The position numbers and the translations under genes were made by a program. The notes under the pieces were generated by a model. It had not been told where the DNA came from. It made no database searches and saw nothing but the letters and a program-made list of their open reading frames with translations. 40,311 nt of DNA from Thermomicrobium sp. CFH 73360 (GTDB taxonomy: Bacteria > Chloroflexota > Chloroflexia > Thermomicrobiales > Thermomicrobiaceae): the NCBI RefSeq assembly GCF_023806465.1, contig NZ_JAMSLS010000011.1, positions 1-40,311 of the forward strand, in the 5' to 3' direction. This document shows positions 18,559-34,611 of the stretch, piece by piece (positions within the stretch are counted from its first letter, which is position 1; each line of letters begins with the position of its first letter).

Positions 18559-18573
18559 CGTGCCTCCGTGTCG

Positions 18574-19353
18574 TCAATGTGTGCTCTGCCCTCCAGCGAG
18601 CGTCGGCTGACACGCGGCGGTCTCAGGATCGCGGTATCCACGTCGTTCTGCCCAGTAGCGATTGGCGCGATGCAAGCTCTCAAACGTCCCGGCATCGCTC
18701 CAGAACCCCCTGAGCTCCACCCAGCGCAACAACCCCAGCTCCAGGTAACGATTGTTCACGTCGGTGATCTCCAGCTCACCGCGCGGCGAGGGTTCCAGTT
18801 CCCGGATGAAATCGAAGACCCGACTGTCGTAAAGGTACAGCCCGGTGACCGCATACGGGCTCTTCGGTTCCTTCGGCTTCTCCTCAATCCGAAGGATCCG
18901 CGTCGGATCATTCGGATCGAACACCGGGCAACCGAAGCGATGTGGGTCAGGAACTCGCGCGAGGAAGATTAACGCGCCGCCGGTAAAACTCTCGACTGCT
19001 GGGCGGATATCCGCATCAGTCGTATTATCGCCTAAAATAACGCAGATATGCTCACCGTCAGCGAACTCCTCACAAAGACTCAAGGCGTCCGCAATCCCAC
19101 GTTCTTCTTCCTGGTACGCATATTCAAGGTGACGGACGCCAAGATGGCGCCCGTTCCGCAAGACACGGAGAAAGTCCCCCGCATGCGGGCCACCAGTCAC
19201 GACCATGATCTCGTCAATACCAGCCTTCACCAGGGTTTGAATGGGGTAGTAGATCATCGGCTGGTCGTAGACGGGCAAGAGGTGCTTGTTCGTCGCAAAC
19301 GTCAGTGGATAGAGCCGCGTTCCCAAGCCCCCTGCGAGGACGACCCCCTTCAT
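18574..19353 (-). CDS. rfbA: Glucose-1-phosphate thymidylyltransferase-like nucleotidyltransferase
   Basis: This 259-residue sugar-nucleotide pyrophosphorylase joins a sugar-1-phosphate to an NTP. The N-terminal signature MKGVVLAGGLGTRLYPLT with the following NKHLLPVYDQPMIYYPI is diagnostic for the RmlA/RfbA family. GDNTTD (metal-binding Asp), RIEEKPKEPKS and GFWSDAGTFESL complete the active site. It is somewhat shorter than classical RmlA (about 290), like the short thermophile forms, so the nucleotide (dTTP or UTP) is not certain. The product would feed rhamnose or other surface glycans; no other rml genes are nearby. GGGGGACGC precedes the start. argS follows in the same operon. Confidence 0.85.
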   Translation of the reverse strand: MKGVVLAGGLGTRLYPLTFATNKHLLPVYDQPMIYYPIQTLVKAGIDEIMVVTGGPHAGDFLRVLRNGRHLGVRHLEYAYQEEERGIADALSLCEEFADGEHICVILGDNTTDADIRPAVESFTGGALIFLARVPDPHRFGCPVFDPNDPTRILRIEEKPKEPKSPYAVTGLYLYDSRVFDFIRELEPSPRGELEITDVNNRYLELGLLRWVELRGFWSDAGTFESLHRANRYWAERRGYRDPETAACQPTLAGGQSTH

Positions 19354-19418
19354 GCGTCCCCCCTGTCGCGTGCCCGCCCTGTGCTCAGCAGCGCTTCCTG
19401 GGCACAGGGCTTGCTCCT

Positions 19419-19424
19419 AGTATA
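19419..19424 (-). promoter_or_regulatory. Possible -10 for the rfbA-argS unit
   Basis: On the minus strand TATACT (complement of 19419-19424) lies about 65 bases before the rfbA start. No good -35 is present, so the call is tentative. Confidence 0.4.
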
Positions 19425-19885
19425 ACGACCGCTTCCCTCTGCCCTGCTTTCTCGCCCTTTCGCGTACTCATGCGATCCGCAGCACGCTCTGACGCGACGC
19501 AACGGTAGCTGCGACGCAACGTGTGTCAGTCGGCGTTGCTCATCTGGATACCTGAGGCTTAAGGCCATGACGGCGTGTGCCAGCCTAGGAAGCATGCCAA
19601 GCGGCCCGCAGCTACCCTCTTTCTCCCCCTTCGCTTGGCCGCCCCCCACCTGGTACGAGCCAAGACTGAAGTGAAATCAAGGTTCCGGCTTGTCCAGGAG
19701 ACCGAAATCGAGTTACCAAAGGAACCGGGGAGCCAAGATCAACACAGACGCTCAGCCGCCAACACGACGAGGTGCGGAACACGCATCCCACACGTGTCGC
19801 TCCGATGCGAGGCTTGTCCGCGCAGATTCAAGACCCCCTTGGTGACAAGTGCCATGATGTCGCTCTCCAAAGGCCGATTCGCCCC
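19425..19885. other. Divergent intergenic region without a recognisable gene
   Basis: This stretch between the rfbA promoter and the TPP-riboswitch promoter has only unsupported open frames. One small feature is a direct repeat GCGACGCAACG at 19494-19504 and 19511-19521 (17-base period). I see no RNA gene or mobile-element end. Confidence 0.45.
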
Positions 19886-19914
19886 TTGACACGCAGGCGT
19901 CGCACGACTACCGT
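19886..19914 (+). promoter_or_regulatory. Promoter of the thiamine-salvage (tenA) operon
   Basis: TTGACA (19886-19891), a 17-base spacer and TACCGT (19909-19914) form a sigma70-type promoter. Transcription would start near 19921, just before the TPP aptamer, which supports the call. Confidence 0.6.
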
Positions 19915-19927
19915 GGAGGTGATGGCG

Positions 19928-20030
19928 TGCCCCGGGAGCTCGGGTGAACCGGGCTGAGAGGGCGGCTGAGCATCCCGCCGCCGACCGGTAGCGACCTGAT
20001 CTGGGTAATACCAGCGAAGGGAGGCCGCAG
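19928..20030 (+). promoter_or_regulatory. TPP riboswitch (THI element)
   Basis: The conserved aptamer blocks occur in order: CTCGGGTG (about 19939-19946), GGGCTGAGAGGG (19951-19962), a variable GC-rich stem, ACCTGATCTGGGTAATACCAGCG (read as ACCTGATCTGGGT plus AATACCAGCG, 19994-20016) and AAGGGAGG closing P1. The CTGAGA and ACCTGATCTGG-GTAATACCAGCG-AAGGGA blocks are the diagnostic TPP-binding core. It lies between a good promoter and two tenA genes, and both the family and its target (thiamine salvage) agree. Ends are approximate because P1 pairing was drawn by eye. Confidence 0.93.
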
Positions 20031-20039
20031 GTCCGCAAG

Positions 20040-20091
20040 TCACCCCCGACGAGAATCGCCAGCCCATTCGAGACGGGTCATTCGGAGGTGA
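20040..20091 (+). promoter_or_regulatory. Shine-Dalgarno-sequestering expression platform
   Basis: TCACCCCCGA (20040-20049) can pair with TCGGAGGTGA (20082-20091), 9 of 10 positions, burying the GGAGGT ribosome-binding site of the first tenA gene. The same TCACCC can instead pair with GGGTGA (19942-19947) inside the aptamer. This gives a simple switch: TPP binding folds the aptamer, releases TCACCC and closes the ribosome-binding site. Pairing is seen in the sequence; the mechanism is inference. Confidence 0.65.
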
Positions 20092-20095
20092 GATG

Positions 20096-20740
20096 ATGTC
20101 TACCCCCCTCCTCGATGAGCTCTTAACCGAAGCGCGCCCCATCTGGGAGGCCATGACAGCACATCCGTTTCTCCGTGAACTCGCCACCGGTCATCTTCCC
20201 CGTGAACGCTTCGACTTTTGGGTGCAGCAAGACTACCGGTTCGTCCAGGACGGACTGCGTTTCCTCGCACTACTCATCGCCCGCGCACCGGACGAAGAAC
20301 TCCGCCGCGGCCTCCTCGATGCAGCGGTTGCCTTCCGCAACGAACTCACCATCTTCGAGGATTATGCCCGTCAACAAGGGCTGCAGCTCGAGGTCGAGCC
20401 CACTCCGGTATGCCTCGGCTATACCAGCTTTCTTCTCGCTACTGCAGCAACCGGCTCGCTCGGAGAGACGCTCGCGGTCCTCTGGGGGGCTGAAAAGGCG
20501 TACTACGACGCCTGGTCCACTGTCCGCCAAGCACTCGGCCTCGCTGAACCCTACGCACGCTGGATCGAGAACTGGACAAGCCCACAGTTCGCCGCGTGGG
20601 TCGATTGGCTCGGAGCACAGCTTGTCCGCTGGTCGAGCACCGCCGAGTATCCGACACTTCGCCGAGCCTTCCTCGCTACAGCACGCTATGAGTACCTGTT
20701 TTGGGACATGGTCTATACCGGCACGACATGGCCGATCTGA
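20096..20740 (+). CDS. tenA: TenA family protein, E class (no catalytic Cys)
   Basis: This 214-residue all-helical TenA/THI-4 family protein probably salvages thiamine breakdown products. Asp46 (in WVQQDYRFVQD) and Glu199 (in ATARYEYLFWD) match the pyrimidine-binding Asp44 and Glu205 of B. subtilis TenA. The active-site Cys region, normally LPCYW, reads VLWGAEKAYYDAW here, so it belongs to the Cys-less TenA_E class. Plant TenA_E members hydrolyse formylamino- and amino-pyrimidine. There are two adjacent ATG codons, at 20093 and 20096; the second has the better 6-base spacing from GGAGGT. It is the first gene behind the TPP riboswitch. Confidence 0.88.
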   Translation: MSTPLLDELLTEARPIWEAMTAHPFLRELATGHLPRERFDFWVQQDYRFVQDGLRFLALLIARAPDEELRRGLLDAAVAFRNELTIFEDYARQQGLQLEVEPTPVCLGYTSFLLATAATGSLGETLAVLWGAEKAYYDAWSTVRQALGLAEPYARWIENWTSPQFAAWVDWLGAQLVRWSSTAEYPTLRRAFLATARYEYLFWDMVYTGTTWPI

Positions 20741-20757
20741 ACGGGAAGGAGTCATCG

Positions 20758-21423
20758 ATGCCTCGCTTTACTGAAGAACTCTGGAATTCAATCGCTGACA
20801 TCTTCGCAGCCATCCTCGCTCATCCTTTCGTTCGTGGCCTGACGGATGGCTCGCTTCCTGAAGATGCCTTTCGCTATTATGTTGTCCAAGACGCCCTATA
20901 CTTACGGGACTATGCACGCTGTCTGGCTCTCGCAGCAGCCAGGTCACCGCGCGATCCTTGGTGTGAACTCTTTGCGGATCATGCCAAAGTTGCGTTGGTC
21001 GTGGAACGCTCGCTCCATGACAGTTTCTTCCGCGAATGGGGACTCTCGCCGGAAGAGATCGCTGCAACTCCATATGCGCCCACAAACTTAGCCTACACCT
21101 CGTATCTCCTTCGCATTGCCTATGATCGCCCCTTCGAGGAACTCCTTGGAGCAGTCCTGCCGTGCTACTGGATCTACTGGGAAGTGGGAAAACACCTGGA
21201 GAAAGCGGGCTCTCCGAATCCACTCTATCAGCGCTGGATCGCGACCTATGCGTCCGAGGAGTATGCCCAGGTCGTGCGGGCGGTCATCGACGTGACCGAC
21301 GAAGCAGTGGCGGATTTCCCCGAGGGACGTCGCGCGGCCGTCCGCGCGCACTTTGTGACCACGTCACGGTACGAATGGATGTTCTGGGACGCTGCCTGGC
21401 GCATGGAGTCCTGGCCGGTCTGA
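20758..21423 (+). CDS. tenA: TenA family protein, C class (thiaminase II / aminopyrimidine hydrolase)
   Basis: This 221-residue homologue of the preceding gene keeps the full catalytic set of B. subtilis TenA: Asp45 (YVVQDALYLRDYARCL), Cys136 (VLPCYWIYWEVG) and Glu206 (SRYEWMFWD). It should hydrolyse aminomethyl-pyrimidine (a base-degraded thiamine product) to hydroxymethylpyrimidine for thiamine salvage in the cytoplasm. The ATG at 20758 follows AAGGAG by 6 bases; a longer frame from 20701 lies inside the first tenA gene. The 17-base gap shows one transcript under the TPP riboswitch. No thiD, thiE or transporter gene is visible here. Confidence 0.92.
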   Translation: MPRFTEELWNSIADIFAAILAHPFVRGLTDGSLPEDAFRYYVVQDALYLRDYARCLALAAARSPRDPWCELFADHAKVALVVERSLHDSFFREWGLSPEEIAATPYAPTNLAYTSYLLRIAYDRPFEELLGAVLPCYWIYWEVGKHLEKAGSPNPLYQRWIATYASEEYAQVVRAVIDVTDEAVADFPEGRRAAVRAHFVTTSRYEWMFWDAAWRMESWPV

Positions 21424-21920
21424 GGCGTCGCGCTGGTTCAAAACCGCGTGAGGATAGCCGTGGGCACGTTCCGCGTGCTGCAACCGTTGTCCTGAGAAGG
21501 ATGACCGCACGCCGCTGACCGTGAATTGCCCGAGGGAGGCCCTGAGGCACGTGATGCGAACGCCACCGTCTCCCAAGCGGTGAAAAGGAGAGGTGGATAC
21601 GGAGACGCTGAACACTCGGGAGCCTCGTTCAGTCCAAGGCTTCTCGCTGGGAACGTTCACGTGACAGAGCGACGTCGACCTGCTCACTCACTCACCCTTC
21701 TCGCCCAGTTCTTCCTTCAAACACAAGCACATGCAGCGAACTCCAGAGACGCTTCGAGCACTCGCCACCTCAGCCCCGCACCAGATGATACTGAGGAAAC
21801 GCCAGGAGCATCACAAGGTCACCAAGTGCAGACATCTTTATCCGCGGCAACCACGTGCGATCACCTGAACCAGTAGACCACCACCTCAGTAGGCGCTGAA
21901 CTCCCTCGCACGTAGGGTGC
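21424..21920. other. Intergenic region after tenA, no gene seen
   Basis: This region of about 500 bases separates the tenA operon from the iron operon promoter. Open frames are short and have no ribosome-binding sites or family resemblance. I see no clear terminator; GGTT/AACC at 21435-21445 gives only a 4-bp stem. Confidence 0.45.
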
Positions 21921-21949
21921 TTGACATGCCCCTGGTCGCTCTCTAGAAT
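21921..21949 (+). promoter_or_regulatory. Promoter of the FTR1 iron-transport operon
   Basis: TTGACA (21921-21926), a 17-base spacer and TAGAAT (21944-21949) form a near-consensus sigma70-type promoter, the best in the window. Transcription would begin near 21956, giving a leader of about 87 bases with two palindromes before the GTG at 22043. Confidence 0.75.
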
Positions 21950-21954
21950 GAATC

Positions 21955-21994
21955 CCGAGTGATTTACTCGGATTTGGTCGCCGGCGACCGAATC
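21955..21994. promoter_or_regulatory. Two adjacent palindromes, possible metal-regulator operator
   Basis: CCGAGT (21955-21960) and ACTCGG (21966-21971) form one inverted repeat around GATTT. Immediately after, 21971-21994 is a 24-base near-perfect palindrome with a 14-base perfect core, GGTCGCCGGCGACC (21976-21989), flanked by GATT and AATC. They cover the presumed transcription start and leader, a usual place for a repressor operator. No Fur or DtxR consensus is recognised, so the binding protein is unknown. Confidence 0.55.
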
Positions 21995-22042
21995 GGGGAA
22001 CGACAGAGCAGATAAATCGCGTTCCAATGAAGGGATGAAGGC

Positions 22043-23176
22043 GTGGGTGTGACGAGGATCCCCATTCGGTCGATGCTTCTTTGTGGAATTTTGGCGCTTG
22101 TTCTCGCAGCATGTCTCTCATCTAACGAGGCACTACCTGGTACCCACTCAGCAAGCCAGTCACCAGCCACAACTGCTCCAACAGCCTCACCCCACACTGG
22201 TCATACAGCGATTTCCCACAAGGATGACACCGAACTCGTCGCGACACTGTACGAGATGCTGGGTCACCTGGAGGCGAGCCGGGCCAACCTTGAGCGAGGG
22301 AACTGGACACTCGTCCAAGCGCATGCGGCTCATCCGACCGCCGAATACTGGGCTAGCGTCGAAGCGGCCCTTACGGCTCGTAACCTCGCCAGCGTCCGCG
22401 GAGCGCTGGATGACTACCTGGAGACGGCGAAGCAGCAGGCCAATGACGCCGCATCACGAAATGACACAGCACGCCAAGCGGTCCAAAATGTGATCCGAAC
22501 CATCGTCGATGAATCTCCAGAACCAAATGTGACGCGTGCTGCAGCACTGGCGCTTCTGGCAGAGTCTATCGCTACCGAGTTCTCTGAGGGTGTTGAGAAC
22601 GGGCGGATCGTGAATGTCGAGGAGTTTCAGGATTCCTGGGGCTTCTTTCACGTTTTGCGTAGCGAGCTTCCAATCGTGCTTTCGACCGCACCAGCAAGTG
22701 GGCAAGGTGCAATAACTGAAGCACAGGAAGACCTGGAGGCACTGGCTCAGACGACCTTCGCACAGTTCTCCGATGCTCCGGGAGCGACGATTGCCGAAGC
22801 TGATACGGCCCGCGAGCGACTGCAACACCTGGCAAGTGAACTGCGCAACGCCTTCGGTATCACTGCTTCAGCGCCCTCTTCAACCGAAGAGCAGCTCTCG
22901 AAGATTCGCGACATGCTCGCAGCCACGTTACAAGCCTACCGCACCGGCGATCCTGACCGGGCCTACGAAGAAGCGGCCAACGCTTACCTAGAGGGTTTCG
23001 AAGCACTCGAGCCAGCATTGCTGGAGCGCGGGCATCGCGAACTCGTCGAACAGCTTGAAAGGGACTTTAAGGCGATCCGCGACGCGATCCGCGCAGGGCG
23101 CCCGGTGGGAGAAGTCGAGCAGCTCATTCGCACTGTAGAGAGCGCGCTCGAGGAGGTTGAGGAGGTGCTCCGGTGA
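22043..23176 (+). CDS. Lipoprotein with FTR1-associated helical domain
   Basis: This 377-residue exported lipoprotein has a signal with lipobox LAAC (Cys24), then a Ser/Thr/Ala/Pro-rich linker (25-55) that includes a His pair in HTGHTAISH, then an all-helical body. The C-terminal 100 residues (GDPDRAYEEAANAYLEGFEALE and onward) resemble the extracytoplasmic N-terminal domain of the next gene (GDRERALRLARQAYLDHFELVE). The product probably binds or delivers iron to the FTR1 permease outside the membrane. The GTG start has AGGGA 7 bases upstream. Its stop overlaps the FTR1 start (GTGA). It is not a recognisable EfeO cupredoxin or imelysin protein. Confidence 0.75.
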   Translation: MGVTRIPIRSMLLCGILALVLAACLSSNEALPGTHSASQSPATTAPTASPHTGHTAISHKDDTELVATLYEMLGHLEASRANLERGNWTLVQAHAAHPTAEYWASVEAALTARNLASVRGALDDYLETAKQQANDAASRNDTARQAVQNVIRTIVDESPEPNVTRAAALALLAESIATEFSEGVENGRIVNVEEFQDSWGFFHVLRSELPIVLSTAPASGQGAITEAQEDLEALAQTTFAQFSDAPGATIAEADTARERLQHLASELRNAFGITASAPSSTEEQLSKIRDMLAATLQAYRTGDPDRAYEEAANAYLEGFEALEPALLERGHRELVEQLERDFKAIRDAIRAGRPVGEVEQLIRTVESALEEVEEVLR

Positions 23177-24444
23177 CCGTCGCTCCGCGGCGCCAATTGG
23201 CAAGGCTTGGATGGTTCGTCACGCTACTCACGGTACTGGTTACGCTCGCCGCACCGTGCGCTGTCGCCGAACCTCCTTCGCCGAGTGTCACCTTGCAGCA
23301 AGAATTGACAGCGATTCGTCAACTCATGCAGGACAGCCAGAAGGCCTACCGGGAAGGAGACCGCGAGCGCGCTCTCCGTCTCGCCCGGCAGGCATACCTT
23401 GACCATTTTGAGCTTGTCGAAATCCCACTCCGCGTTGCCGACCCCAACTTCACGTTCGCGATGGAAGTCAAGTTCGCTCAATGGCGGCAACTCATCGAGC
23501 GCGGGGCGCCATCTTCCGAAATCGAACGGCTTCTCATGGACATCGACAGCGGACTTGTGGAGGTCGAGCGGCTCGTCGGAGGTCCTGGTCTTGCTGCACC
23601 CCTCTTCGTCGGGCTTGCCTCCTTTTCTATCCTGTTTCGCGAAGGGATCGAAGCGATTCTCGTTATCGCCGCCTTGCTCGGCTATTTGGGCACCCATCAA
23701 CCGCGTCTTCGCCGTCCCCTCTGGATCGGAGTCACTCTTGCAATCCCTGCCAGTCTCTTCACCTGGCTGGCTCTCGTTGTGGTCCTGCGGGTGGTTCCGG
23801 TCGGTCGAGAACTCTTAGAGATTGGAATGTCACTCTTGGCGGTGGTGCTGATGATCTCGATCAGCCTCTGGCTATTGCGCCGAATTGACATCCGCCGTTG
23901 GATGGAACACCTCCGAGGGCACGCGTGGGAGGCGATCGCAACCGGCAAGGCATCAGCGGTCGCGCTCCTGGGCTTCACCGCCGTTTACCGCGAAGGCGCA
24001 GAGACAGCAGTCCTGTACCAGTCGCTCCTGCTCATGGCTCGCCGGCTGGAGTTTTGGGTTCTGCTGGGTATCCTCTCGGCTGCCGTTGTTCTGGTGGCAT
24101 TGGGATGGACGATCATCGGCCTTGGCAGACGGCTCCCCTTACGAGCCTTCCTCTCGATCGCAATTCTGATCATTATGATCTTGTCCCTCGCCATCTTGGG
24201 TCACGCGGTATGGGAAGTTCAAATGCTCGGCTATCTCCCAATCTCGGTTCTCCAGCTACCCAATCTGAATCGCAGTCTCCTGGACCTCTTGGGCCTCCAT
24301 CCGACACGAGAGGTTCTCCTGACACAGGCAACACTCGCTGCTGCCTATCTGGCCGCGTGGGGATGGGCCGGCTGGTCCTGGTACCGATCAGCACCAGCAA
24401 AACGTGCGCTGGGAGCAACTGATCGAGGGAGGGGGATCGCGTGA
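23173..24444 (+). CDS. FTR1 family iron permease
   Basis: This 423-residue membrane permease is of the FTR1/EfeU family, importing oxidised iron. It has an N-terminal signal or anchor (about 11-31), an extracytoplasmic helical domain (about 38-135) and then about seven membrane helices (142-405). Both iron-translocation motifs are present: REGIE (156-160, in ILFREGIEAILVIAALLGY) and REGAE (273-277, in AVYREGAETAVLYQ). The GTG start overlaps the previous stop by 4 bases and the stop overlaps the next GTG, giving tight translational coupling. A ferroxidase partner (multicopper oxidase or EfeB peroxidase) is not found here. Confidence 0.92.
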   Translation: MTVAPRRQLARLGWFVTLLTVLVTLAAPCAVAEPPSPSVTLQQELTAIRQLMQDSQKAYREGDRERALRLARQAYLDHFELVEIPLRVADPNFTFAMEVKFAQWRQLIERGAPSSEIERLLMDIDSGLVEVERLVGGPGLAAPLFVGLASFSILFREGIEAILVIAALLGYLGTHQPRLRRPLWIGVTLAIPASLFTWLALVVVLRVVPVGRELLEIGMSLLAVVLMISISLWLLRRIDIRRWMEHLRGHAWEAIATGKASAVALLGFTAVYREGAETAVLYQSLLLMARRLEFWVLLGILSAAVVLVALGWTIIGLGRRLPLRAFLSIAILIIMILSLAILGHAVWEVQMLGYLPISVLQLPNLNRSLLDLLGLHPTREVLLTQATLAAAYLAAWGWAGWSWYRSAPAKRALGATDRGRGIA

Positions 24445-26495
24445 TCCGCATCGGCATCGATGTCGGCGGTACGTTCACCAAGGCGGTTGCGCTCCATCAG
24501 GCGACTGGCGAACTCCTCGCTCACGTCGCCGTCCCAACCACGCATCACGCCAAACACGGTGTCGCGGCCGGAGCCGTAGAGGCTTTACAGACGCTGATCC
24601 ACCACGCTGGTATCCCGCCTGAGACTATCCGCGTGGTGACGCTCAGCACAACCCAAGCGGTCAATGCACTGCTCGAAGGGGACGTTGTACCGGTCGGGAT
24701 TCTCGCGATCGGCCCACGCGCTGAGCGGCGGCAGACACAACAGCGCACGCGTTTGGAACAGGTTGAACTCGCGCCCGGACGCACACTCACACTCCATTAC
24801 GCCTACCTTGATCGTGAGGCCGCGAACGCTGACACAGTACGGGCTACGCTCGAGACGCTGCACCGCTCTGGCGCCGATGCTGTTGCGATTTCGGCTGCCT
24901 ACGCCGTTGAAGATCCAGAGCCGGAGCGTCTCGCGCTTGCCATAGCCGGCGAACTTGGTCTTCCTGCTACGGCGGGCCATCAGCTGACCGGCCTCTATGG
25001 TCTGGAAGTTCGCACCGTGACGGCAGCGATCAACGCGAGTATTCTGCCGCGCATGCGTGAGACGACAGAGTGGGTACGCGCGGCATTGCGCGAAGCTGGA
25101 ATCCTCGCCCCCGCCATGATCTTGACGGGCGATCTGAGCGTAGCACCGATCGACCAACTTGCTGAACTTCCAGTCGCAAGCATGCTGTCCGGCCCAGCCG
25201 CAAGTGTCGCAGGCGCGCTCCGGGGACATCCGACCGTCGATGCACTCTTTGTCGAGGTCGGTGGCACCAGCACGAACCTGGGCGTGATTCGCGATGGCCG
25301 CCCAACACTGCGCTACGTGCGCATTCTGCACCACCCAACTTGTCTGCGCTCTGTCGACGTCCATGTCGCAGGGCTTGGCGGCGGTTCACTGATCCGCGTC
25401 AAGCGGGGCCGAATCATCGGCATTGGTCCACGGAGTGCTCACATTGCTGGCCTACCCTACGTCAGTTTCGCCAGCGATCTCGAGCCACCCTTTCTGATCA
25501 CCACGATCGCACCGCAACCGGGAGACACTCCCGATTACGTTATGGTCCGCGATCGAAACGGGCGAACTGCCGCTTTAACAGTGACGGATGCGGCGAATGC
25601 ACTCGCATGGCTCGCGCCGCACGACTACGCCTTTGGTGACCGTGAGCGCGCCCGCTCTGCGTTCCAACCGCTTGCTGACCTCCTCGGGCGCACGGTGGAC
25701 GAGACTGCAAGGGAAGTCTTGGGGCGCGCCGTCGATACACTCGTCCCGCTGACACGAGAACTGATACAGGACTATGAACTGCGAGAGCCACAACTGATCG
25801 GCCTTGGGGGCGGTGCTGGTGTGCTTGCACCGGCACTGGCCCAAAGACTCCAACTTCCCCTCATGATCGCGCAACACGCTGAGGTCATGGCCTCGATCGG
25901 TGCGGCGACCACGCCGCTGAATCTGATTGAGGAGGTGCATATCCGTTCCGGATCCGAGCTCCTCACTGCCATTGAGCGTGTCGAGCGCCGTCTCGTGGCT
26001 CTCGGTGCAGATCGACGCAGCGTGCAAGTCGTCGTCGAGCCGATTCCGGAAAGACAGGCCTCACGCATTCGCGCCACAGCCGTTCAGGAGCCATCGACAA
26101 GTTCTACCGAAATGCGGATCAGTCGCGCCGAGGCCTTGGAACTGGCGGCACAGGCCCTTGGGGTTCCGCCGCACGATATCGAACTCCAGTTTGAAAACGC
26201 ATTTTACCGTGTCTTCACGGCCGTCGTGCGTCGTGGGATTGGTCCCTTCCGGCGTGAGCGCCGGCCACTCGTCGTGGTCGATAGTACCGGTTCAATCTGC
26301 TTCCGCGCCGCAGATGGCTGGTGCCGCGCGGTTCGTAGCTCTGCGGAACTTTCGCTCCCAGCCCCAACTGGGGGATGTGCCTGTGCCATTCTTGGCTCAC
26401 GCTGTCTCCTCTTTGACCGTGCACTGACCGTCCAGGCGCCGGCAGATGCTGATGAACCAGGCTGCCTACTCATTGGGCATCCGGTACGTCTGTGA
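24441..26495 (+). CDS. Hydantoinase A / oxoprolinase family protein
   Basis: This 684-residue ASKHA-fold ATPase-like protein has glycine-rich phosphate loops at IGIDVGGTFTKAVAL (3-17), VEVGGTSTNLGVIRDG (about 272), GLGGGSLIRVKRG and LIGLGGGAGVLAPALA (about 455). This is the HyuA subunit family, members of which cleave cyclic imides with ATP, usually with a HyuB partner. No hyuB gene is present. It sits in the middle of an FTR1 iron operon, overlapping both neighbours through GTGA junctions, so its role may differ from hydantoinase. The last 120 residues (after ATAVQEPS) are less typical. It contains an unusual Cys-rich CACAILGSRCLLF near the C-terminus. Confidence 0.82.
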   Translation: MIRIGIDVGGTFTKAVALHQATGELLAHVAVPTTHHAKHGVAAGAVEALQTLIHHAGIPPETIRVVTLSTTQAVNALLEGDVVPVGILAIGPRAERRQTQQRTRLEQVELAPGRTLTLHYAYLDREAANADTVRATLETLHRSGADAVAISAAYAVEDPEPERLALAIAGELGLPATAGHQLTGLYGLEVRTVTAAINASILPRMRETTEWVRAALREAGILAPAMILTGDLSVAPIDQLAELPVASMLSGPAASVAGALRGHPTVDALFVEVGGTSTNLGVIRDGRPTLRYVRILHHPTCLRSVDVHVAGLGGGSLIRVKRGRIIGIGPRSAHIAGLPYVSFASDLEPPFLITTIAPQPGDTPDYVMVRDRNGRTAALTVTDAANALAWLAPHDYAFGDRERARSAFQPLADLLGRTVDETAREVLGRAVDTLVPLTRELIQDYELREPQLIGLGGGAGVLAPALAQRLQLPLMIAQHAEVMASIGAATTPLNLIEEVHIRSGSELLTAIERVERRLVALGADRRSVQVVVEPIPERQASRIRATAVQEPSTSSTEMRISRAEALELAAQALGVPPHDIELQFENAFYRVFTAVVRRGIGPFRRERRPLVVVDSTGSICFRAADGWCRAVRSSAELSLPAPTGGCACAILGSRCLLFDRALTVQAPADADEPGCLLIGHPVRL

Positions 26496-26959
26496 GGGAG
26501 CTAATGGTCGTCGTTCGTCCACAGAGCCGGAGAGTAGGCTGGTTCGGTGTTGCTGCGATTGCACTCGGCATCATAGTACTTGCCATTGCAGTAATTTTCT
26601 GGGCGTCGTCGCGCGAGAGTCCTGTTCCCCGTCCCGAGGTCACTGGCGTGGTTGAGCGGATCCAGGCAGAGCTTGACGTCTTGCAGGTGTCCCTCTACAC
26701 GGATCACGTTGTTCGCAATGGACAGGTGCGAGAACTGGAGGAGTACGCTGCTGCCCAGACAGCAGTCCAACGGGCTCGGGCGCAATGGGAAGCCATTCGT
26801 GAGGCGGTCTCACCGGAATACCGTGATCCCGTAGATCGTCTCTTCGAGGAACTCCAGACTGCTGTCAATACGCGAGCACCAGCAGCAGAGGTTCAGGAAC
26901 TCGTGCGGGAACTTGAGCAAGCACTGCGCCCAATGGAGTCCACCGAGAACTCTGGCTGA
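26492..26959 (+). CDS. Membrane-anchored helical protein of the iron operon
   Basis: This 155-residue protein has a single N-terminal membrane helix (about 17-41, WFGVAAIALGIIVLAIAVIFWA) and an extracytoplasmic helical domain (about 50-148) rich in Glu, Arg and Gln. The domain ends with LVRELEQALRPM, in the style of the FTR1 N-terminal domain (IERLLMDIDSGLVEVE). The GTG start overlaps the preceding stop (GTGA) as elsewhere in this operon; an ATG at 26504 behind GAGGGAG is an alternative. It is likely a third extracytoplasmic component of the iron system. Its 3' end overlaps a convergent minus-strand frame by 67 bases. Confidence 0.7.
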   Translation: MRELMVVVRPQSRRVGWFGVAAIALGIIVLAIAVIFWASSRESPVPRPEVTGVVERIQAELDVLQVSLYTDHVVRNGQVRELEEYAAAQTAVQRARAQWEAIREAVSPEYRDPVDRLFEELQTAVNTRAPAAEVQELVRELEQALRPMESTENSG

Positions 26960-27315
26960 CGGGAAACTCTCGGCCGCCGAGCGACAAAAAGCCAATACGG
27001 CAGGAACGCGAGGACGTTGAAGAGCGCGATCATGATCAGCCAGAGCGTCCGTCCACCGGGAAACAAGTACGCTGGACGTTGCAGCAGGTCCGCGAGAGCA
27101 ACAACGAGTCCGAGCCAGGTCACAATGAACGATGGGAGCAAGAAAGGCACAATCAGCCAGGCCGTGGCCGAAAAAAGCAGGACAGCAACGATCGGTCCGC
27201 CGACAAAAAGAACGAACGTGGCCGTCGCCACCGGCAACAGCCACGTTTGTTCGCTCAGGACTCCAAAGAACGAGCGTTCCTGCTTGTGGTCAGCAGTGCC
27301 CGGTGCGCGTCGCAC
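26893..27315 (-). CDS. Small membrane protein with PLDc_N-like C-terminus
   Basis: This 140-residue frame encodes three hydrophobic segments: WLLPVATATFVLFVGGPIVAV, IVPFLLPSFIVTWLGLVVALA and LWLIMIALFNVLAFLPYWLFVARR. The last resembles the PLDc_N (phospholipase D N-terminal) membrane motif. The GTG start is only 2 bases past the rpsU stop, suggesting coupling to rpsU. The C-terminal 20 or so residues overlap the end of the convergent iron-operon gene and look non-conserved, which lowers confidence in the exact end. The function is unknown. Confidence 0.5.
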   Translation of the reverse strand: MRRAPGTADHKQERSFFGVLSEQTWLLPVATATFVLFVGGPIVAVLLFSATAWLIVPFLLPSFIVTWLGLVVALADLLQRPAYLFPGGRTLWLIMIALFNVLAFLPYWLFVARRPRVSRQPEFSVDSIGRSACSSSRTSS

Positions 27316-27317
27316 AC

Positions 27318-27542
27318 TCAGAGCCCAACCTGGCCCTTCTTGGCGAGCTTCGCAAGCTTGCGGCGGCGCCGATGCTCCGCTTTGCGGATCTTTGCCCGGC
27401 GCTGCTCCGACTTGCTGACGTAGTGCCGCTTTGCGCGATAGTCACGCAGTACTCCCGCCTTCTGGAGCTCCTTGGTGAACCGCTTCAGAAGCGCGTCGAA
27501 GCTCTCGTTCTCGCGCAGCTCGACATGAACCGACTTCGCCAC
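27318..27542 (-). CDS. rpsU: 30S ribosomal protein S21
   Basis: This 74-residue basic ribosomal protein starts (GTG) with AKSVHVELRENESFDALLKRF. It has the S21 core KELQKAGVLRDYRAKRHYVSKSEQRR and a Lys/Arg-rich tail. It binds the small subunit near the anti-Shine-Dalgarno end of 16S rRNA and helps initiation. A GAGG ribosome-binding site precedes the GTG. It is read from its own promoter (-10 near 27606) through a short leader with a hairpin. Confidence 0.93.
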   Translation of the reverse strand: MAKSVHVELRENESFDALLKRFTKELQKAGVLRDYRAKRHYVSKSEQRRAKIRKAEHRRRRKLAKLAKKGQVGL

Positions 27543-27574
27543 CTGACCTCACACCCCTTCGGTGCACCCGGATT

Positions 27575-27592
27575 GGCACGAAACACCGTGCC
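27575..27592 (-). promoter_or_regulatory. Hairpin in the rpsU leader
   Basis: GGCACG (27575-27580) and CGTGCC (27587-27592) form a perfect 6-bp stem with a 6-base loop, in the presumed 57-base rpsU leader. A second palindrome, GTGCCGGCAC, overlaps its edge. A role in autoregulation is possible but unproven. Confidence 0.4.
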
Positions 27593-27605
27593 GGCACACC
27601 TCTGT

Positions 27606-27614
27606 ATCCTACCA
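27606..27614 (-). promoter_or_regulatory. Extended -10 promoter for rpsU
   Basis: On the minus strand TGGTAGGAT has the extended -10 form (TGn then TAGGAT), followed by AC. Transcription would begin near 27599. The same TAGGATAC string occurs upstream of mrp (37185). Confidence 0.45.
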
Positions 27615-28306
27615 CACTGGCAATTCATGGTGCACAATCTCGATAAGCCCCGTTTCTCATGACCCTCAGCACCCAATTCCCAGCGAACTGATTCTTCGCC
27701 CAATCCGTCGTCCGGACAATGTGTCCCCAGGCGGCGTCTTGGCTGCACGGAGCCAACACAGTTGATTAACGATCATTTGTCAACGCACTGATTCACACCA
27801 GGCGTGAACCCCCGATGCAGCGGCACTCATTTCACCAATCTGAAATACGGGCTCGGCTCGGAAGTCGAAGCCGATGAACGAATAGCAGTATCTTGGTAAA
27901 GCCAGAATAGCATCGGTTTCGATCACCACATTGTCGCCGGTGCCACCGACCCGATCGAGTAACTGATGAAACTTGTCGCTCTCGGGAAGTTCCCCGTGCT
28001 GCAGCCGTTGGGGAAAACACTTGTGTGCCACCTCTTCATCGGTCGTTGGTCGGAGTGACTATGCCACGACGTATTTCCTCGGAGCATCCCCGCTCTGCGA
28101 GTACCTTCGTGGTTCACAGCCCGGAGCGTGATCAGTAGACTGGAGTCTGAATGTGACCAAACCCTTCCAGGTTTGCCAAGCGTACGCTGTGCTCGCTTCA
28201 TACCTAGTCTTCCCTGACTCCACCATGCGCCGGGTGCCGTTTACGACGCCATTGGCTCGCACCTCGAACGGTGTCGTACGTGATTCCACCCTACGCTACG
28301 AGTCAA

Positions 28307-28331
28307 GTAGTAGCCGAATCGGCACTACTAC
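28307..28331. repeat. Inverted repeat GTAGTAG...CTACTAC
   Basis: GTAGTAG (28307-28313) matches CTACTAC (28325-28331) exactly, with CCGA and TCGG pairing again inside. No T-run follows, so it is not a standard terminator; its role is unknown. Confidence 0.5.
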
Positions 28332-28437
28332 GACATGGTGTTGCAGTTAACCGCCGCCGTCGAAACGACGTCACCGCGACCCCGACATGTCCGACTCACA
28401 CGTGCGACCGGTCCTTCGGGTCGATACCGAACAGGGT

Positions 28438-28453
28438 CATACTGCTCAGTATG
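28438..28453. repeat. 16-base palindrome CATACTG-CT-CAGTATG
   Basis: Two perfect 7-base arms are separated by two bases. GGGT before and ACCC after (three-base bulge) extend the pairing. It could be an operator or a short hairpin in the gene-poor region before the urease-like cluster. Confidence 0.5.
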
Positions 28454-28910
28454 CGAACCCGTCGCAATAGTCTCCAGCCCAAATGCTCGTCCATAGTTCG
28501 CCGCCAAAGCAAATCCGATCCGGCAGGAGATCATTGAGAAAGTCTGAACTTCGTCAGCAGTGTGCAGACTGGCTCTGAGGAGGAGCAAGATCATGTCGGA
28601 GGAAGCATGCGTTCAATCCTTCGCCGGACATCTTCAATGCGCGTCATGCTGGTGCGAACGCACATCCCCTTTACGGGGAAGACCAAGGCTCATCAAGAGA
28701 CCGTGGTGGAAACTGATGATCCGTCTTGACCATACCGAATTATATGGTCGCACAGCGTGCCTCGCAGGTGACGGCCGGCGGTTGGTCTGGTGCCTAGTTC
28801 TCGGCCCCGAATCTCCGCAGCCAGAGGTCAGGAGGAACACTGCGCTGTCGAGACTGGAACATCTGGTCTCATCCACTCATCGAGAGTCGAGACATCTCCC
28901 GGAATGACGA

Positions 28911-28919
28911 TGCTATACT
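28911..28919 (+). promoter_or_regulatory. Extended -10 promoter of the HTH/urease-like operon
   Basis: TGCTATACT is an extended -10 (TGn plus TATACT at 28914-28919), 33 bases upstream of the HTH gene. The -35 is weak (GAGACA or GACATC). Confidence 0.55.
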
Positions 28920-28951
28920 CTCCGCTTGCGAGGCAGTCAGGGGAGCGATCA

Positions 28952-29200
28952 ATGATTGAAATCGACGGTGTCGAGTATCTGACAGCCGAAGAAGCAGCGG
29001 CGCTGCTCGGCGTCAAGCGCGAAACGCTCTATGCCTATGCGAGCCGCGGCCGGCTTCGGAGCTATCGCCGCGGTATCCGTCGTGAGCGCCTCTATCGGCG
29101 ATCCGACCTGGAAGCACTGCTCCGTCTGCAGCCAGCATCTCACGAGCGGGACAGCATCCGACTGCCTGCGGCCGAGACCTGGATTCCTTTCACGTCCTGA
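28952..29200 (+). CDS. Helix-turn-helix (MerR/excisionase-type) DNA-binding protein
   Basis: This 82-residue protein consists of little more than a winged helix-turn-helix: YLTAEEAAALLGVKRETLYAYASRGRLRSYRRG followed by RLYRRSDLEALLRLQ (the first part is given here in overlapping pieces TAEEAAALLGVKRETLY and AYASRGRLRSYRRG). The pattern is the same DNA-binding module that precedes some citrate synthase-like proteins and is used by excisionases and MerR regulators. The ATG at 28952 has GGGGAG upstream. It is the first gene of the run leading to the urease-like genes and is the natural candidate regulator, with the palindrome at 28438 as a possible site. Confidence 0.8.
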   Translation: MIEIDGVEYLTAEEAAALLGVKRETLYAYASRGRLRSYRRGIRRERLYRRSDLEALLRLQPASHERDSIRLPAAETWIPFTS

Positions 29201-29245
29201 CCATCGCTGCCCGATGCACGCTCTCTTGTGGCAGGGAAGTGCCGC

Positions 29246-29590
29246 ATGGCCGAGCAGAGGCTCTACATCTGGTTGGACCGCAATCCCTTCTCCGGACCGC
29301 CCGACCTCTGGATTGAGGATGTCCCCGGGCATGCCGATCTGGATCTCCTGGCCGAAGCGATTCGGGCTGGTCGTCTTGGACGCTTTCTCCCAGTCCGACT
29401 CGCCATTTCCACCCACCCAGATCCCAAATTGCCGTCGGGTTACCGCAGCGTGAACGTTGTCAATCTTCTCCGCCAACACCGCATCCCCTACCGAACGCGC
29501 CTTGAACTACTCTTGGATATGACTGGCGATGTTTCGCCAGCCGGAAGTGAAAGTGCCGAGCCTACTCCTCAACCCACGCGGAGGCCATGA
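29246..29590 (+). CDS. Unknown protein preceding urease gamma
   Basis: This 114-residue protein starts MAEQRLYIWLDRNPFSGPPD. A middle segment reads LLAEAIRAGRLGRFLPVRLAIS and the C-terminus is Pro/Glu/Thr-rich. No known family, including UreD, E, F, G or H, is recognised. The ATG at 29246 has AGGGAAG upstream; a GTG at 29228 is possible. Its stop overlaps the ATG of the urease gamma gene (ATGA), so it is translationally coupled to the urease-like genes and probably acts with them. Confidence 0.7.
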   Translation: MAEQRLYIWLDRNPFSGPPDLWIEDVPGHADLDLLAEAIRAGRLGRFLPVRLAISTHPDPKLPSGYRSVNVVNLLRQHRIPYRTRLELLLDMTGDVSPAGSESAEPTPQPTRRP

Positions 29591-29892
29591 TGTACCTCAC
29601 ACCGAAGGAACTCGATCGTCTCACCGTTTTCACACTCGCCGAGCTCGCTCGCCGTCGCCGTGCGCGGGGTATCAAGCTCAACTATGCGGAGGCCGCAGCC
29701 ATTATCTGTGATGAGGTGTACGAGGAGGCCCGCGCCGGGCGCCCATACGAGGAGGTGGTTGCTCACGCCTGTTCGCTCCTTACCCGCGATGACGTCCTCC
29801 CAGGCGTTCCTGAAATGCTCAACGTCCTGTATATCGACGCACTCTTCCCGGACGGCACACGCCTCGTGACAGTAAGGGATCCGATCCGATGA
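29587..29892 (+). CDS. ureA: Urease gamma subunit-like protein
   Basis: This 101-residue protein is clearly of the urease gamma family: MYLTPKELDRLTVFTLAEL, ARGIKLNYAEAAAIICDEV, ARAGRPYEEV, LTRDDVLPGVPEML and ALFPDGTRLVTVRDPI align along the whole length. It is a structural subunit of the cytoplasmic (gamma-beta-alpha)3 assembly. It overlaps the upstream unknown gene and the downstream beta gene by 4 bases each (ATGA). Substrate identity depends on the alpha subunit, which is atypical here. Confidence 0.93.
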   Translation: MMYLTPKELDRLTVFTLAELARRRRARGIKLNYAEAAAIICDEVYEEARAGRPYEEVVAHACSLLTRDDVLPGVPEMLNVLYIDALFPDGTRLVTVRDPIR

Positions 29893-30278
29893 GGGACATT
29901 CTCATTCCGCCTGGTGGTATCGTCCCCGGCGAAGGGGAAGTCGAGATCAACGCTGGCCTCCCCGTCACTGTTGTCCGCATCACCAATCGCGGCGCCGTCC
30001 CGGTGCACCTCACTGCCCACTTCCATGTCTTCGAAGCGAATCCCGACCTCTGCTTCGACCGCCGGAAGGCATTTGGCATGCGTCCCGATATTCCTGTGGG
30101 TTGGGCTATCCGGATCGAGCCCGGCCAGACCCTTGAGGTCCCACTTGTCCCGATCAGGGGACGACGCATTGTCCGCGGATTCCATGGCCTCGTTGATGGA
30201 CCGCTGGATACGGCTGACCTCGACGCGTTGCTGCAAGAACTTGTCAACCGTGGCTTTTGTCACCAACCCGAGGAGTGA
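29889..30278 (+). CDS. ureB: Urease beta subunit-like protein
   Basis: This 129-residue protein is of the urease beta family: an N-terminal IPPGGIVPGEGEVEINAGLP, the conserved AHFHVFEANPDLCFDRRKAFGMRPDIPVGWAIRIEPG region and GFHGLVDGPL (the long block is continuous near residues 43-80). It binds at the trimer surface next to the active-site flap of the alpha subunit. The ATG overlaps the gamma stop. The alpha GTG follows 13 bases after the stop behind AAAGGAG. Confidence 0.92.
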   Translation: MRDILIPPGGIVPGEGEVEINAGLPVTVVRITNRGAVPVHLTAHFHVFEANPDLCFDRRKAFGMRPDIPVGWAIRIEPGQTLEVPLVPIRGRRIVRGFHGLVDGPLDTADLDALLQELVNRGFCHQPEE

Positions 30279-30291
30279 AAGGAGCCCGGGT

Positions 30292-31992
30292 GTGCCCATC
30301 CGTATCGACCGAAGGCGGTACGCCTCGTGGTATGGACCGACAGCCGGCGACCGAGTCCGCTTGGCTGACACAAATTTATTTGCCCGAATTGAACGAGACG
30401 ATACCCTACCCGGCTTTGAGCCGCTCGTCGGTTTTGGGAGACCGGTCCGTGACGGCATGCTGACAAGCCGAGACCATGGACCAAGCAAGCTCGATTTGGT
30501 GATCACCAACGTCATCGTCATGGATCCAGTGCTTGGCATCTTCAAAAGCAGCATCGGTATCAAGGACGGCCGCATCGTCGCTCTCGGTCGCGCCGGGAAC
30601 CCAGACGTCATGGACGACGTGGAACTGCTAATCAGCAATGCCACAGGGATAATCCCTGGAGAGGGTCTGATCGCCACCCCTGGTGCAATCGACGCGCATG
30701 TCCACCTCTCTTCGACCAGCGTGATCCCGGCGGCGCTGAGTGCTGGTATTACCACGCTCGTTGCCCAGGGATCCGGCGGCGTGTGGGATCTTGGGGTCAA
30801 CCCAGCGACGAATCTACGGCACCTCTTTGAGGCTTTTGAAGCAATCCCGCTCAATCTCGCTGTGCTTGGACGGGGATCCTCCGACCACGCACAACTCGTC
30901 GAGCACCTTGAATCCGGGTGCGCCGGATTCAAGATCCACGAAGATGTCGGCGCGTTCCCTGCGGTCATCGATACGTGCCTCACTGTTGCCGACCAAGCCG
31001 GAGTCCAGGTCGCGCTCCACACCGATGGGCTGAACGAAGCGGGATCGCTTCGTGAGACGATCGCGGCGATCAATGGCCGCTCCATCCACGCCTACCACGT
31101 CGAGGGTTCCGGCGGTGGACATGCACCAAACGTCCTGGAGATTGTGTCCGAGCCGAACATTATCGGCTCCTCCACTAGTCCGACGATCCCATACTCTCGA
31201 AACAGCACCGCTGAACTGCTCGACATGATCGTCGCGGTGCACCGGCTGTCACGAGATATCCCAACCGACGTCGCTGCTGCCCATGACCGAGTGCGGGCAA
31301 CGACGATCGCCGCCGAGGACATCCTGCATGATCTGGGCGCCATTTCGATCATGTCCTCCGATTCGCAGGGTATGGGACGCATCGGCGAAGTCATCAGTCG
31401 CACCTGGCAGCTTGCACACCGCATGAAAGAGGTCCGCGGAGGTGGCTTTGACCCAACGACCGGTACTGGTGATGACAATCCGCGAATCCTGCAGTATCTG
31501 GCAAAGTACACGATCAACCCTGCCATCACCCACGGCCTCGACCATGAGGTCGGTAGTTTAGAGCCCGGAAAACTTGCTGACATTGTGCTCTGGCATCCGG
31601 CCTTCTTTGGTGCCAAGCCGGCTGCAGTCATCAAAGGCGGGTTTGTGGTCTGGGCTCCTGTCGGTGACGGTATGGGTTCTACCCGCTGGAGTCAGCCGTT
31701 GATCTATCGAGCAATGTTCGGCGGACTCGGCCGCGCTCCGGCGGCTTTGGCCGTCGCATTTGTTGCACCTGTTGCTCTTGAAACTGGAGCCTTCGTTCGG
31801 TACGGACTGCAACGTCGTCCGGTCGCTGTGCGTAACACCCGCCAGATCTTTAAAGGCGCGATGTACTACAATACAGCCTCACCTCGTGTTCGCGTGGATC
31901 CGACGACCCTGGAAGTCGCGATTGACGGCCAGACCGTCTCCATTCCGCCCGCCGAGGAACTCCCCCTCACCGTTCGCTATTTCATCGCCTGA
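30292..31992 (+). CDS. ureC: Divergent urease alpha subunit-like amidohydrolase
   Basis: This 566-residue dinuclear amidohydrolase has the full urease alpha length. By alignment to Sporosarcina pasteurii urease the metal ligands are kept: His136/His138 (137/139), carbamylated Lys214 (220), His243 (249), His269 (275) and Asp357 (363). Catalytic His216 (222), His317 (323) and Arg333 (339) are also kept. Three substrate-site features differ: flap Cys322 is Val316; the neighbour of His323 is Arg318; Ala366 is Gly360. The loop holding Ala170 is 5 residues shorter and rewritten (AQGSGGVWDLGVNPATN). Thus the hydrolytic centre is intact but the pocket may take a compound larger than urea. The GTG start follows AAAGGAG. 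No nickel-insertion genes are near. It could be a low-activity urease or a different ureohydrolase. Confidence 0.88.
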   Translation: MPIRIDRRRYASWYGPTAGDRVRLADTNLFARIERDDTLPGFEPLVGFGRPVRDGMLTSRDHGPSKLDLVITNVIVMDPVLGIFKSSIGIKDGRIVALGRAGNPDVMDDVELLISNATGIIPGEGLIATPGAIDAHVHLSSTSVIPAALSAGITTLVAQGSGGVWDLGVNPATNLRHLFEAFEAIPLNLAVLGRGSSDHAQLVEHLESGCAGFKIHEDVGAFPAVIDTCLTVADQAGVQVALHTDGLNEAGSLRETIAAINGRSIHAYHVEGSGGGHAPNVLEIVSEPNIIGSSTSPTIPYSRNSTAELLDMIVAVHRLSRDIPTDVAAAHDRVRATTIAAEDILHDLGAISIMSSDSQGMGRIGEVISRTWQLAHRMKEVRGGGFDPTTGTGDDNPRILQYLAKYTINPAITHGLDHEVGSLEPGKLADIVLWHPAFFGAKPAAVIKGGFVVWAPVGDGMGSTRWSQPLIYRAMFGGLGRAPAALAVAFVAPVALETGAFVRYGLQRRPVAVRNTRQIFKGAMYYNTASPRVRVDPTTLEVAIDGQTVSIPPAEELPLTVRYFIA

Positions 31993-31998
31993 CACCGG

Positions 31999-32637
31999 CT
32001 AATCGTAGATCCGAACAAGAATATCGGTCGGATTGAAAGCATTACACGGATTCTGATCCTGCGGGCACGCGGAAACTGCGATAATAAGATCCATAAGTGC
32101 TCGAAGTAACACATAGTCATTGCGCTCCGAGAGTGGTTCCCGAATCTCGAAACGTCCCTTGGCGACGATACCAACATTCATGAACCAGTTGACGGGATCG
32201 GGGATATCATCCTCCTGGATACCATACTCCCCAAGAACACTCAAGAAGTTATCTTTACAGTTTGGATGGTCGGGTATGCCATAGTCGTCCAGGTATCGCC
32301 GCTGATCGCACGCTGGAAAGAGGATGTCGTGGCGACCAACCGTATCTTCGAGGAGCACGAGCATCGGATTGCGACGATTGCTGTAGAGAATCATCCCCTG
32401 AGTCAAAACGAGCGAGTTATTGATCGCACGCGTGTGTGACGTCGAGAGATACTCGCGGACATCGTGCAAGTTGAAGGCCACCATGTCCGCAACCTGTTTT
32501 CCTTGGACATCGGTGATCTGGAGAAGCTGCCCCTCCTTCAATGGAAAAGCGATCGGCACCGTTGGCCGCACCTGTGCCGCTCGCTTCGGCACGCGGCCAA
32601 ACAAGATGTGCTCACTGGGCGCTATCGGCTGCGCCAT
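31999..32637 (-). CDS. DUF1989 / urea carboxylase-associated protein
   Basis: This 212-residue protein belongs to the DUF1989 family. Motifs in order are QVADMVAFN, STSHTRAINNSLVLTQG, RNPMLVLLEDTVGRHDILFPACD, NCKDNFLSVLGEYGI, PDPVNWFMNV and DLIIAVSACPQDQNPCNAFNPTD, with conserved His, Cys and Asp residues. Family members found beside urea/guanidine carboxylase form the carboxyguanidine deiminase CgdAB; here a single copy is present and no carboxylase is seen. The ATG at 32637 lies after GGGAGAGAGG; the frame extends to 32664. It overlaps the end of the first ureohydrolase gene and ends 6 bases from the convergent urease-like alpha gene. Confidence 0.88.
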   Translation of the reverse strand: MAQPIAPSEHILFGRVPKRAAQVRPTVPIAFPLKEGQLLQITDVQGKQVADMVAFNLHDVREYLSTSHTRAINNSLVLTQGMILYSNRRNPMLVLLEDTVGRHDILFPACDQRRYLDDYGIPDHPNCKDNFLSVLGEYGIQEDDIPDPVNWFMNVGIVAKGRFEIREPLSERNDYVLLRALMDLIIAVSACPQDQNPCNAFNPTDILVRIYD

Positions 32638-33592: not shown

Positions 33593-33650
33593 CTGCTGCT
33601 CTTCCGATCCGGCTGTTTCACAGTGGCCTCCTCCACACCTCAGTTTGTTC

Positions 33651-34610: not shown

Positions 34611-34611
34611 C

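Follow-up and report, generated by a model that had tools for sequence, protein, structure and literature searches.

An FTR1-family permease paired with a HyuB-less ASKHA protein in Chloroflexota and Nitrososphaeria

Two described kinds of iron importer come closest to the operon reported here. EfeUOB/EfeUOM combine an FTR1-family permease with an all-helical secreted partner, and so does our operon, but no cupredoxin, M75 or EfeB peroxidase family is detected among its four genes, and it adds a cytosolic ASKHA protein and a second, anchored helical protein. FetMP-P19/FtrABCD join an FTR1 permease to an extracytoplasmic iron-binding partner, which is putative in our case. The fetMP-fetABCDEF cluster also encodes an ATP-using component, the ABC-type FetBCD, the role of which is unclear (PMC10783030). 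However, our operon has no P19, cupredoxin, ABC or thioredoxin genes, and its nucleotide-binding partner would be a soluble ASKHA protein. The described relatives of that protein are the HyuA-type subunits (CapA, acetone and acetophenone carboxylase, NMHase). Over residues 1 to about 560 it has their fold and their order of domains, but three aspartates are replaced (D>K14, D>E272, D>N279), the GxxPGP motif is missing and there is no HyuB partner.

Searches of the literature on FTR1 with hydantoinase/oxoprolinase and on archaeal iron uptake, which left out subscription journals and preprints, found no paper that makes the link. The FTR1-ASKHA pair appears to be a kind of ATP-linked iron uptake system that has so far gone unrecognised.

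The four-gene operon and its upstream region

The operon belongs to the hot-spring bacterium Thermomicrobium sp. CFH 73360. By the window we mean the whole stretch of DNA that was analysed, positions 1-40,311 of contig NZ_JAMSLS010000011.1. A preliminary description had placed four ORFs at 22043-26959, encoding a lipoprotein, an FTR1 permease, a HyuA-like ASKHA protein and an anchored helical protein, and we confirm all four (Table 1). They share one strand and GTG starts, and each of the first three runs 4 bp (GTGA) into the next, at 23173, 24441 and 26492.

Table 1. Features of the operon and its upstream region in the window
Feature	Position	Strand	Assignment and basis
Promoter	21921..21949	+	Sigma-70-type, TTGACA-17-TAGAAT; 11/12 consensus positions; hexamers invariant in 7 aligned orthologues
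Palindrome CCCGAGTGATTTACTCGG	21954..21971	+	Candidate operator; directly after the -10; equivalent palindrome upstream of gene 1 in relatives
Second inverted repeat GGTCGCCGGCGACC	21976..21989	+	Near-invariant in seven orthologues
Gene 1	22043..23176	+	Secreted lipoprotein, helical, that may be the iron-binding ectodomain partner of FTR1; lipobox, conserved motifs, all-helical model
Gene 2	23173..24444	+	FTR1-family permease with N-terminal extracytoplasmic helical module; PF03239, REGxE motifs, clade membership
Gene 3	24441..26495	+	HyuA-like ASKHA protein, predicted to bind nucleotide, from a distinct subfamily that lacks HyuB; PF01968 and PF05378, model, signature K14/E272/N279
Gene 4	26492..26959	+	Helical protein anchored by a single membrane pass, its helical domain extracytoplasmic; conserved at nine further loci

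The preliminary description asked whether the gene order is conserved. We compared 61 genomes, the host's own and its relatives, counting a protein of 58% identity or more as an FTR1 orthologue. Eleven genomes have one. In 10 of these it is immediately followed by an ASKHA orthologue (53-100% identity); in G005, the eleventh, the contig breaks off, and the end of the ASKHA gene and gene 4 are on another contig. The order lipoprotein-FTR1-ASKHA-gene 4 is thus found in every relative with an FTR1 orthologue and a readable contig, as well as in deeper Chloroflexota. It is common to three genera, in two of which the flanking genes differ. This four-gene order is far beyond chance.

The overlaps are another matter. 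The preliminary description took them to mean that all four proteins are very likely made in a fixed ratio. The overlap of genes 1 and 2 is 4 bp long (GTGA or ATGA) in 10 of 10 visible loci. Those of genes 2 and 3 and of genes 3 and 4 occur only in the three closest species (that of the window and its two nearest), and elsewhere they are replaced by gaps of 12-29 nt and 1-13 nt respectively. Since only the first overlap is conserved, we uphold a fixed ratio for the lipoprotein-FTR1 pair alone and reject an overlap-based stoichiometry of all four proteins, two of the overlaps not being kept in relatives.

Gene 2 matches PF03239 (E 9e-17; 61.7 bits vs a gathering cut-off of 25.3) and falls short of the EfeU equivalog NF041756 (80.6 bits vs 255). 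Both REXXE motifs are present, REGIE at 156-160 and REGAE at 273-277, and the R, E, G and last E of each are invariant among the 11 FTR1 orthologues. It is the only FTR1 gene in the genome. A PDB sequence search with the FTR1 profile gave no match. As the preliminary description had noted, no ferroxidase family is detected among the four genes.

The first gene product has the lipobox LVLAAC, no Pfam family, and a predicted model that is all-helical (mean pLDDT 86). Its conserved segments are GHLE, HAxHPxAE and EFQDxWGFF; the conserved H75, H94, H97 and E101, with the GHLE segment, could form a metal site. Over its last 95 residues the protein is homologous to the FTR1 N-terminal domain (hhalign probability 98%, E 1.5e-13). 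Foldseek ranks EfeM (7q1g) third and EfeO (7wgu) tenth for this model, at weak E values of 0.07-0.35 that make them a lead only. No M75 (imelysin) family is listed in the Pfam scan at E<=1, the VIA structure search returns mostly generic or fusion-partner helical bundles, and a PDB search with the lipoprotein profile finds designed or coiled proteins only. Gene 4 has no Pfam family either. Its product begins with a single membrane segment and is helical towards the C-terminus, its profile is weakly similar to another part of gene 1 (probability 85%), and it recurs downstream of the ASKHA gene in other Chloroflexota.

Upstream of gene 1 an equivalent of the palindrome is found in all ten orthologous loci, in imperfect form in two of them (L063 and L064). 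A degenerate pattern for it has one exact match in the Thermomicrobium genome, the operon site itself. A relative that does not have the module (G007) carries its sole copy behind a TTGACA element, upstream of a FecBCD-type iron ABC operon, which encodes two FecCD permeases and an ABC ATPase along with a PF01497 binding protein. This ties the candidate operator to iron supply, and so iron-linked regulation of the module is supported indirectly, through shared sequence. The Rrf2 regulator RisR is reported to have a core GAC-N7-GTC palindrome with AT-rich flanks (PMC9973013). The sites of the related genera g3 and g4 and of G007 have this form; the window site is GAG-N7-CTC. We looked for a shared suf/isc regulon by way of the palindrome and found none, there being one exact site in the genome and one-mismatch sites at the control rate.

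The leader from operator to gene 1 (TTTGGTCGCCGGCGAC.GGATCGGG) is nearly invariant across seven genomes, beyond what would be expected for an operator alone. It is possible that it has a transcribed structure. In an Rfam scan of 18000-32000 the one match is the TPP riboswitch by the TenA genes; the leader therefore belongs to no known RNA family.

Several neighbours deserve mention. A conserved convergent ORF (26893-27315, minus strand) overlaps the 3' end of gene 4 and is kept across the genus at 50-90% identity, together with the bS21-like region downstream. The TPP riboswitch (RF00059, 56.8 bits) precedes two tandem TenA/thiaminase-II-family genes with a mutual identity of about 31% (19922-21423). 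Genes for urease gamma, beta and alpha, conserved in the genus, lie at 29587-34757, and after them on the other strand come what look like genes for a urea-carboxylase-associated-type protein and for two agmatinase/ureohydrolase-like paralogues in tandem, which are 64-68% alike; all of these we identified by eye.

The predicted nucleotide-binding site of the HyuA-like protein

The third gene matches Hydantoinase_A (PF01968, E 4e-45) and Hydant_A_N (PF05378, E 2e-21), and its AlphaFold2 model is confident (pLDDT 85). The closest solved structures are the HyuA-type chains of acetophenone carboxylase, acetone carboxylase, caprolactamase and N-methylhydantoinase, and it is to these ATP-binding structures that the match over some 560 residues applies (Z 18-24). 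Across ASKHA structures as a whole Z is 12-24, the activators of 2-hydroxyacyl-CoA dehydratase included (4eht, Z 15.4; 1hux, Z 14.9). In a tree the subfamily forms a separate clade from other HyuAs with full support.

Within this subfamily Asp7 of phosphate-1 and the glycine loops are invariant, and the predicted ATP site is remodelled at other positions. Phosphate-1 reads DVGGTFTK, where HyuA has DxGGTxTD, and phosphate-2 reads EVGGTSTN (EVGGTSSN in some members), where HyuA has DxGGTxxD. The three aspartate replacements are present in 83/83 members and in 0/14 control HyuAs, and the adenosine motif GxxPGP in 0/83 members vs 11/12 control HyuA loci. The corresponding positions are described for the caprolactamase CapA, where Asp11 and Asp295 are required for activity, Asp18 is proposed to aid phosphate binding via Mg and Asp302 lines the substrate site (PMC8453981). 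Their equivalents in the window are D7, which is kept, and E272, K14 and N279 respectively.

The preliminary description saw no HyuB near the operon, and this is borne out. The genome has one HyuB gene, on contig 23, with a HyuA paralogue of its own next to it. Of the archaeal genomes with the subfamily, the 24 that were checked all lack HyuB and 23 of these have FTR1; a lactamase with a distant partner is therefore unlikely. Because the substitutions are fixed, GxxPGP is lost and HyuB is missing, we conclude that the protein is a HyuA by descent and fold without the features that define HyuA catalysis. It probably binds ATP. The preliminary description had also offered the processing of a siderophore-like cyclic ligand, an idea that is weakened because the catalytic motifs are changed and the ring-opening subunit is missing.

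Distribution and a second operon type

We scanned 84,980 species genomes for further members of the ASKHA subfamily. They occur in Chloroflexota, Nitrososphaerota, Proteobacteria and Rokubacteria; a MAG that bears the name Rubrobacter turns out to be the contig of G351, which our genome set assigns to the class of the window. Among the viral contigs searched there is no relative of the protein. A strong match (over 850 bits) occurs in 13/400 Chloroflexota genomes, in 11 of which FTR1 lies directly upstream and the order of the operon is preserved. FTR1 of any kind is present in 178 of the 400, so most FTR1s are without such a partner. The FTR1s that do have one are related to each other. In a tree of the permease part the ASKHA-associated FTR1s, bacterial and archaeal together, form one clade of 42 rows with 95/95 support and the remaining sampled FTR1s fall outside it; row L200 carries the label unlinked but represents the same gene as L123, which is linked.

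The archaeal sample consists of 120 genomes of Nitrososphaeria, the class that includes Nitrosotenuis. Of these, 31 have the subfamily, and the FTR1 clade, at a threshold of over 200 bits, occurs in exactly those 31. In 24 of them the two genes are same-strand neighbours; in 4 the distance is 5-7 kb, and in the last 3 the genes lie far apart or on separate contigs. Several loci also have a helical ectodomain gene upstream or downstream. The hypergeometric value for this exclusive co-occurrence is 2e-29, which is not a count of independent events since the genomes are related. The co-occurrence may come from one ancestral gain, and if so 31/31 overstates the number of independent events. The preliminary description would have been refuted had the ASKHA gene not been conserved together with ftr1, or had it been a plain hydantoinase or oxoprolinase with a distant partner. 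Neither is what we find: the two genes go together throughout the 31 genomes, and HyuB is missing from all 24 archaeal genomes checked. The reading as an iron system is supported.

Nitrososphaerales have the ASKHA and FTR1 genes unlinked or kilobases apart. At four of their loci (L117, L126, L127 and L182) the ASKHA gene is preceded by a gene of the Asp/Glu/hydantoin racemase family (PF01177), not FTR1, and in some genomes of this group FTR1 is 5-7 kb away.

The subfamily also occurs in a second conserved operon, made up of a GntP-like permease, the ASKHA protein and a short protein with an HE-containing AHELYHH motif. This is the arrangement in the other two Chloroflexota (G141 and G346), where the permease is directly upstream and the short HExxH-motif-like protein directly downstream, and in 21 of about 26 ASKHA loci in Proteobacteria and Rokubacteria. 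Examples are L225 (5786-10042), L226 (6443-10687) and the roughly 21 proteobacterial and rokubacterial loci, such as L143 and L152. The GntP-like permease has no Pfam match above cut-off. The two operon types are alike in that the same ASKHA subfamily lies directly downstream of a polytopic permease; they differ in that the permease is unrelated, the short third gene is HExxH-like, and FTR1 and the helical ectodomain genes are missing.

What the ASKHA protein may do

That FTR1 and the ASKHA protein form a functional module we consider very probable. How the module works is far less settled. The reading that we favour, tentatively and at somewhat less than an even chance, is an FTR1-type import module in which the ASKHA protein acts from the cytosol, in a nucleotide-dependent way, to gate, energise or pull the release of iron. 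The extracytoplasmic helical proteins (the lipoprotein, the N-terminal domain of FTR1 and gene 4) would capture iron and pass it on, and FTR1 would move it across the membrane. The ASKHA protein would be the dedicated cytosolic nucleotide-binding partner of this FTR1 clade, most likely an ATP/ADP-state switch or weak ATPase at the cytosolic face, and its action would stand in for the usual drive by an external ferroxidase. Iron is presumably the substrate, and contact with FTR1 and coupling to transport are what such a scheme would entail. We favour it because of the preserved gene order, the FTR1-ASKHA pairing, the single FTR1 clade with both REGxE motifs intact in the window, the match of the ASKHA model to HyuA-type ATP-binding structures, the altered ATP site, the absence of HyuB and the palindrome before an iron ABC operon, and because the ASKHA gene directly follows the permease gene in the second operon type too. 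The energised or regulated FTR1 system of the preliminary description is compatible with all of our results.

Against it, the ASKHA and FTR1 genes of Nitrososphaerales are not neighbours, and the second operon type can also be argued the other way. Since the subfamily also sits with a GntP-like permease, the protein is not exclusively a partner of FTR1 and could be a small-molecule kinase, phosphorylating a ligand of the carboxylate, carbonyl or bicarbonate type that goes along with imported iron or traps it. In Proteobacteria the ligand would enter by the GntP-like permease, and the product would be used without HyuB. Characterised HyuA-type subunits do phosphorylate a ketone, bicarbonate or lactam (PMC5214803; PMC8453981). 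Residue N279, at the position where Asp302 of CapA faces the substrate, is invariant in both operon types, which suggests one shared ligand, and the neighbours of the GntP-type locus L226 resemble enzymes of sugar-acid catabolism, as identified by eye. It is this invariance of the substrate-site residues that gives the idea weight and makes it the chief rival. However, no substrate suggests itself that an iron permease would have in common with a GntP-like one, the acidic residues of the catalytic site are replaced, and import of an organic ligand is not known for FTR1 systems. We consider a kinase unlikely, though a serious contender.

A cytosolic factor for iron delivery or activation, akin to the ASKHA activators and Hsp70-type chaperones, would take iron from FTR1 or load an iron enzyme. 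The fold is common to the dehydratase activators noted above, and K14 resembles what we take to be their phosphate-1 lysine, a lead and no more. Yet no Cys is conserved across the subfamily, nor is any other cluster or iron site obvious, and the association with a GntP-like permease goes unexplained, so that we find the proposal improbable. An unrelated metabolic gene carried along in the operon, its linkage merely historical, would fit the members in Proteobacteria and Nitrososphaerales that have no FTR1 nearby, but the linkage persists where flanking genes change between genera, it spans two domains, and the presence pattern equals that of FTR1 in the 120 archaeal genomes; we hold this to be quite improbable. 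An ordinary ATP-dependent hydantoinase or 5-oxoprolinase subunit with its HyuB encoded elsewhere is largely refuted and barely credible, for despite the Pfam match to both HyuA domains and the one HyuB in the genome, that HyuB has its own HyuA, the 24 archaeal genomes checked have none, and the catalytic motifs are altered in all members.

We return to the gating or energising of FTR1. In its boldest form, which we think rather unlikely as a whole, this would be an unrecognised class of importer common to thermophilic Chloroflexota and ammonia-oxidising archaea, in which the ATP cycle of the ASKHA protein and not external ferroxidation drives or gates FTR1, and maybe the GntP-like permease too, making a general family of permease-coupled ATPases. 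The finding bears on how FTR1 transporters are energised in prokaryotes without a partner oxidase. Ammonia-oxidising archaea are often iron-limited in the ocean, and little is known of their iron uptake. Should the pairing mean what it seems to, the automatic annotation of a widespread protein subfamily as hydantoinase/oxoprolinase would need correcting, and the small operon of a culturable Thermomicrobium relative would be a tractable model for iron uptake in these archaea.
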